Below are positions 41,274-41,342 of a DNA stretch of 64,000 bases, in pieces. The notes under the pieces were generated by a model. It was given only the letters and a program-made list of their open reading frames with translations, was not told the DNA's origin and made no database searches. The position numbers were made by a program, and so were the translations under genes. The stretch is from positions 1-64,000 of IMG/VR virus record IMGVR_UViG_3300049434_000014; one strand, written 5' to 3'. This DNA is from a virus. Numbering within the stretch: the stretch's first letter is position 1; the number at the start of each line of letters is the position of its first letter.

Positions 41274-41342
41274 GGTGGTGTGCTGAAGGATCGGGGTACT
41301 TCTCCGATAAGACAATCCTGATCCGCTTTAGTTGCCATCACC
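41274..41342 (+). ncRNA. Y-like RNA, copy 1
   Basis: The ends pair (GGTGGTG 41274-41280 with CATCACC 41336-41342). Inside is an asymmetric internal loop (TGCTGA on the 5' side, GCTTTAGTTGC on the 3' side), then a second stem (AGGATC 41287 with GATCC 41320). This lower stem, conserved internal loop, upper stem layout with GAAGG is that of Ro-binding Y RNAs. The Ro60 gene starts 250 nt downstream. No sequence search was possible. Confidence 0.55.

Follow-up and report, generated by a model that had tools for sequence, protein, structure and literature searches.

A probable short Y RNA at the head of a three-unit array upstream of a phage Ro60 gene

The window analysed in this study covers the initial 64 kb of a virus record of 153 kb and encodes a DnaB-like helicase, a DNA polymerase and a UvsX-like recombinase, a gene content of the large tailed phage type. 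The best whole-length phage match of the DNA polymerase was the enzyme of Microbacterium phage Magritte (37 % identity), and a DNA-level search among phages detected no near relative of the virus. Between an HNH-type ORF, which ends at 41226, and an ORF of 562 aa, which starts at 41590, lie approximately 360 nt without a convincing gene, and this gap is occupied by three tandem Y RNA hairpin modules at 41274–41568 (Table 1). No promoter was found upstream of the array. A GC-rich 10-bp hairpin without a T run is located immediately before it (41232–41255). Elsewhere in the window, we noted an ArdC-N-like anti-restriction domain with an M78 peptidase motif (34618–35658) and, downstream of the 562-aa ORF, genes for an SbcC/Rad50-like ATPase and an SbcD/Mre11-like phosphoesterase (43310–45882).

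The 562-aa ORF is a Ro60/TROVE protein. It matched Pfam TROVE with an E-value of 1e-12 and PHROG 850 with an E-value of 1.5e-26, and a profile made from this protein and ten relatives retrieved only Ro60/TROVE structures from the PDB (9kop, 9l5y, 9nen, 1yvp and 2nvo). The predicted structure (mean pLDDT 87) gave 13 fold matches with E < 0.001, all of them Ro60/TROVE, including 1yvp (Ro with RNAs), 2nvo (Deinococcus radiodurans Rsr) and 9l5y (Ro60 of Thermus phage phiLo). The DxSxS residues of the vWA metal site (residues 378–382) were invariant.

Table 1. Features of the Y RNA array, the Ro60 gene and the RNA repair genes in the window
Feature	Position	Strand	Basis
Y RNA copy 1, short, without tRNA-like module	41274–41342	+	fold z −4.2; top blind covariance-model match, same ends
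Copy 1 outer stem H1, 5' strand GGTGGTG (partner 41336–41342)	41274–41280	+	pair probabilities ~0.9 in full leader
Copy 1 conserved 5' unpaired strand TGCTGAA, predicted Ro-contact side	41281–41287	+	motif recurs in copies 2, 3 and distant phage L113
Copy 1 inner stem H2, 5' strand GGATC (partner 41320–41324)	41288–41292	+	own-versus-cross complementarity, first of 62
Copy 1 TACTTC hairpin motif	41297–41302	+	invariant in relatives' aligned short units
Copy 1 inner stem H2, 3' strand GATCC	41320–41324	+	sequence; pair probabilities
Copy 1 conserved 3' unpaired strand GCTTTAGTTGC	41325–41335	+	sequence; motif comparison
Copy 1 outer stem H1, 3' strand CATCACC	41336–41342	+	sequence; pair probabilities
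Y RNA copy 2, short; 10–11 bp outer stem; TGCTGCAGG...TTCTTC...GTTGCC	41353–41430	+	fold; second-best model match
T5 run directly after copy 2 stem	41430–41434	+	sequence
Y RNA copy 3, long, with inserted tRNA-like module	41435–41568	+	fold z −4.7; pair probabilities
Copy 3 T-arm-like hairpin GTTGGG-TTCGATAT-CCCAAC	41497–41516	+	fold
Copy 3 hairpin at position of closed acceptor stem, permuted tRNA order	41519–41538	+	fold; compared with L001 and L113 units
AAGGAG, likely ribosome-binding site of Ro60 gene	41575–41580	+	sequence
Ro60/TROVE gene, 562 aa; TROVE ring and vWA domain with MIDAS DxSxS	41590–43278	+	Pfam PF05731, PHROG 850, PDB profiles, fold matches
T4-type RNA ligase	55772–57139		
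PNKP	58482–59516		

Copy 1 was predicted to fold into a 69-nt hairpin in which conserved unpaired strands separate an outer stem of 7 bp from an inner one of 5 bp. Its fold energy was −28.3 kcal/mol (z = −4.2), and none of 200 dinucleotide shuffles was as stable. When the full 374-nt leader was folded as one transcript, copies 1, 2 and 3 each formed independently, and the pair probabilities within copy 1 were about 0.9 for the outer stem and 0.8–1.0 for the inner stem. The original prediction, made from the sequence, had described both pairings as exact. The outer stem is real, yet it consists of six Watson–Crick pairs and one G·U pair (41278·41338); in the inner stem, proposed as AGGATC with GATCC, the GGATC portion pairs exactly but the preceding A has no partner. 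The strand TGCTGA(A) faces GCTTTAGTTGC, as had been proposed. In the minimum-energy fold, CUGAA additionally pairs with UUUAG within this ‘unpaired’ loop, and pairing of this type was not seen in copies 2 and 3.

A second copy with the same unpaired sequence but different stems had also been described. This holds for copy 2 and equally for copy 3, so that the array contains three units, one more than the text had implied. The unpaired strands common to copies 1, 2 and 3 are TGCTGAAGG, TGCTGCAGG and TGCTGAAGG, respectively, on the 5' side, CTTC in the hairpin and GTTGCC on the 3' side; in all copies the modules follow the order closing stem, TGCTG(A/C)AGG 5' strand, second stem, CTTC hairpin motif and GTTGCC 3' strand. 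The fold of copy 2 gave z = −4.3 (computed for 41349–41430), and its stem, followed directly by the T5 run, looks terminator-like in sequence. In copy 3, for which the z-score was computed over 41433–41572, the T-arm-like and acceptor-like hairpins are present and the D-arm is degenerate, with no clear candidate. The T-arm and the tRNA-like module are absent from copy 1, which places it outside the strict definition of YrlA. A tRNA gene was rejected, as ARAGORN and Rfam identified no cloverleaf at 41274–41568.

Ro proteins with 34–47 % identity to that of the window were found in phages of Streptomyces, Gordonia and Arthrobacter, and Ro proteins were also encoded on 304 or more IMG/VR contigs and by numerous actinobacterial chromosomes. 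With a simple unit finder (TGC anchor, NTACTTC core and closing stem), arrays were detected in 91 of 92 Ro loci: 58 carried a short unit, 81 a tRNA-like unit and 50 both. The 600 nt upstream contained 2.27 units per locus, as against 0.025 in shuffled sequences. Shuffles were chosen as the null because a control of 600 nt taken from within the Ro gene proved not to be neutral, being positive once in 45 of 91 loci, probably owing to a shared coding motif. A covariance model built from 38 short units gave 199 matches in the 92 loci, all on the Ro strand, and a second model gave 96 matches in a set of chromosomal loci from Streptomyces, Amycolatopsis, Nocardia and others; the actinobacterial chromosomes thus bear arrays of this same type. 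Of 89 related loci, 29 had a terminator-like hairpin separating the array from the Ro gene (3.6 expected), so that in many of these relatives the array is probably transcribed as a separate unit.

The covariation check proposed for related phages was carried out on these loci, which come from phages and proviruses, and many compensatory changes were observed in both stems of the homologous short units that precede Ro60 genes. In the inner-stem test, the own-unit complementarity was 15.7, while the highest value among 5000 permutations was 12.3, and each of copies 1 and 2 ranked first of 62; the inner stem was never used in unit selection, so that this test is independent of the selection. For the outer stem, units selected by motif only had 5.6 of 6 positions paired, compared with at most 4.45 in permutations. 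In the model alignment of 142 distinct units, which is biased towards the structure, 92.8 % of cells were paired versus 67.9 % after shuffling and at most 46.5 % after sliding, and double changes occurred at all 11 of the 11 pairs. Since no very close phage relative was found, this covariation applies to the homologous class rather than to the exact bases of copy 1.

We also searched the 64 kb on both strands, with filters off, using two models from whose training the window had been excluded. The best match was 41274–41342, identical to the ends of the original prediction, and the second was copy 2. The scores were modest (14.7 bits and E 0.37 for copy 1, 13.1 bits and E 0.9 for copy 2), and across the blind models the E-values of copies 1 and 2 reached only 0.2–0.9; the support from this search thus lies in rank and place, not in the E-value. 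The weak E-values are likely due to a difference of subtype, as actinobacterial units carry the loop strands TGCGNAG/TGATC and those of the window TGCTGAAGG/GTTGCC. A 14.5-bit model match in G000, at 108 kb, was treated as chance, because the sequence there looks coding.

The exact loop motif of the window, TGCTGAAGG…TACTTC…GTTGCC, recurred in a distant phage. A strict motif scan of IMG/VR returned five stretches, of which one was a real Ro array (L101); in the other four, tblastn found no Ro gene. The contig concerned (L101/L113) encodes a Ro protein only 27 % identical to that of the window, and its own five-unit array repeats the motif, the stems and the mixture of short and long units. Magritte (L253, 15760–16520) seems to carry a Y-like array of about six units before its Ro gene, with motifs of its own (GGCTGAAG...GTTATC...CCCCTGTC), and this array was missed by the unit models built here. 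In Streptomyces phage Kela (L012, 1660–2412), an annotated RNA ligase gene separates the Y-like region from the Ro gene, making Ro and an RNA ligase neighbours there.

Several phages have annotated tRNA genes just upstream of Ro: L004 (2269–2343), L007 (2274–2347), L008 (2162–2233), L009 (2245–2335), L110 (2010–2077) and L253 (16029–16105). Their names are GiJojo gene 29, Alone3 gene 36, VanLee gene 125, Frankenweenie gene 148, Xanthomonas phage 10KY502B gene 31 and Magritte gene 117. Each of the six lies within a Y RNA unit or next to one, and both of those given a score were below the Rfam tRNA cut-off. These annotated ‘tRNAs’ are probably tRNA-like modules of Y RNAs and not tRNAs.

Neither the Rfam model of YrlA (RF02553) nor that of the animal Y RNA (RF00019) matched 41150–41650 up to an E-value of 5. 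Long array units from Gordonia phage VanLee, L001 and L113 were recognised by the YrlA model with 47, 44 and 41 bits (E 1e-7 to 7e-6), and none of the units of the window or its relatives reached the Rfam YrlA cut-off. Tandem tRNAs mimic YrlA up to about 29–32 bits, compared with 41–47 bits for the long units of the relatives. A YrlA cluster at 95.5–97.8 kb of G000, outside the window, was not accepted: it scored below the cut-off, and 13 of 14 control genomes were also positive. It probably consists of tRNA arrays, as tandem tRNAs give the same T-arm, acceptor and D-arm order.

The array resembles that of YrlA/Yrl, the partners of Rsr/Ro60, in its position beside a Ro60 gene, its long end stem, its conserved internal-loop strands and the presence of several units per locus; the long units share with YrlA a tRNA-like module whose parts are permuted (T-arm, closed acceptor hairpin, D-arm). 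Unlike YrlA, copy 1 has no such module, the D-arm of copy 3 is degenerate and the window array has no Rfam match. Animal Y RNAs (RF00019) are likewise small hairpins with an outer Ro-binding stem and an asymmetric internal loop, although the window array does not match their Rfam model. As in the Salmonella rsr-yrlBA-rtcBA operon, Ro60 is accompanied by more than one Y RNA and by RNA repair enzymes in the same genome (PMC7790460); however, the Y RNAs of the window precede the Ro gene while those of Salmonella follow it, and the repair enzymes are T4-type Rnl1 and PNKP, 13–17 kb away, instead of RtcB and RtcA. Phage-encoded Ro60 is shared with Listeria phage CKA15 and Thermus phage phiLo (PDB 9l5y, an entry whose title mentions the Ro60 dimer only). 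Upstream of the Rsr-like gene of CKA15, at a distance of no more than 2 kb, non-coding RNAs are transcribed at a high level, and one possible explanation put forward for them was that they are Y RNAs (PMC12282133). Mycobacteriophage Y RNAs have been reported bioinformatically (PMC12282133, citing Chen et al. 2014).

Taken together, the evidence supports copy 1 as a real structure and the Y-like reading of it as correct, given the compensatory changes in homologous units and the gene approximately 250 nt downstream for Ro60, the protein by whose partnership Y RNAs are defined. Copy 1 is very probably a short Y RNA, the first of three, and a partner of the downstream Ro60. The 2014 study of Chen and colleagues reportedly placed likely Y RNAs near Ro60 in more than 250 bacteria and phages, with at least one Y RNA per species being tRNA-like. 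Short tRNA-less Y RNAs accompanying tRNA-like ones are therefore probably not new as a kind.

Other readings of the locus were weighed against this one. The array might be a cis-acting leader of the Ro60 mRNA, to which free Ro60 would bind and thereby repress or attenuate translation, with no separate small RNAs being made. The end of copy 3 only 21 nt before the Ro start codon, adjoining the ribosome-binding site, fits such a leader, as do the T5 run after copy 2 and the failure to find a terminator between copy 3 and the Ro gene. We nevertheless consider this improbable for the array, since a terminator-like hairpin stands at that point in 29 of 89 related loci, unit number and type vary, tRNA-like inserts suit a leader poorly and the bacterial Y RNAs described in the literature exist as separate RNAs (PMC8394870, PMC4726728). 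In the phage of the window, no terminator-like hairpin was found between copy 3 and the Ro gene, and a cis-regulatory role is therefore possible for copy 3.

Short units resemble long ones minus the insert, and the simple finder detected long units in more loci than short ones (81 versus 58), as might be expected if copy 1 were a decayed tRNA-like Y RNA or a functionless relic. Short units are nevertheless present in most loci, and the compensatory stem changes and the invariant UACUUC are not expected of a relic, which makes decay very improbable. To read the hairpin as a chance fold or as an intrinsic terminator is hardly credible. Isolated matches to a relaxed motif do arise in coding DNA, such as the one at 48747 of the window, dismissed because it lies inside an ORF, and the model E-values for copy 1 alone are weak; however, three units occupy 300 nt directly before the Ro60 gene, the top two model matches in the 64 kb fall on the two adjacent short units and copy 1 has no T run after it. 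A chance fold was rejected on the basis of both the folds of shuffled sequences and the unit counts in shuffled upstream regions.

As a short Y RNA, copy 1 would be transcribed as part of the array and would bind Ro60. Its outer stem and asymmetric internal loop (GUGCUGAAGG opposite GUUGCC) are predicted to dock on the exterior of the Ro60 ring, with the inner stem and its UACUUC hairpin pointing away from the protein. In D. radiodurans, a Y RNA gates Ro and tethers it to PNPase (PMC4726728), and a review describes bacterial Y RNAs as having a long terminal stem bound by Rsr and a tRNA-like domain bound by PNPase (PMC8394870). Copy 1 does not have the tRNA-like module of copy 3, so that it might serve as a gate or competitor, a role we rate just short of an even chance: it would stabilize Ro60 and control the entry of misfolded RNA, and copies 1 and 2 are both proposed to act in this manner without tethering. 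Copy 3 could be a tether or tRNA mimic that recruits tRNA-binding factors or PNPase.

The window also contains, at 54899–59516, two tRNA-Lys genes (CTT and TTT, at 54899 and 55104) together with the RNA ligase and PNKP. The ligase and kinase-phosphatase of T4 repair cleaved tRNA-Lys, and the set in the window likely serves tRNA-Lys repair against anticodon nucleases. In Salmonella, the Ro/Y RNA operon is induced by tRNA fragments, and the tRNA-like domain was proposed as a competitive inhibitor (PMC7790460). Ro60–Y complexes may thus serve RNA (tRNA) quality control and the damage response during infection. With the precedents of T4 tRNA-Lys repair and the Salmonella operon, a role in tRNA damage is the most economical guess; it is a guess and a somewhat doubtful one, because the repair genes are 13–17 kb from the array. 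A wider and rather unlikely proposal is that short tRNA-less Y RNAs form a separate functional class in the mixed arrays of phages and host actinobacteria, in which gate-only or competitor subunits would tune the share of Ro60 rings with a tRNA-mimic tether; in the phage of the window, they would contribute, with the RNA ligase, PNKP and tRNA-Lys, to counter-defence against tRNA-cleaving immunity.

Conservation of Y RNAs and Ro60 extends from phages to humans. At the locus of the window and in approximately 90 similar ones, short and tRNA-like Y RNAs are maintained together upstream of Ro60, and a comparative structure is now available for the short kind. This analysis adds a third copy, a comparative model for the short class and the recurrence of the exact motif in a distant phage. 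For the annotation of phage genomes, some deposited tRNA genes are probably parts of Y RNAs. The culturable phages GiJojo, VanLee, Atuin and Neville carry arrays in which either kind of Y RNA could be deleted.
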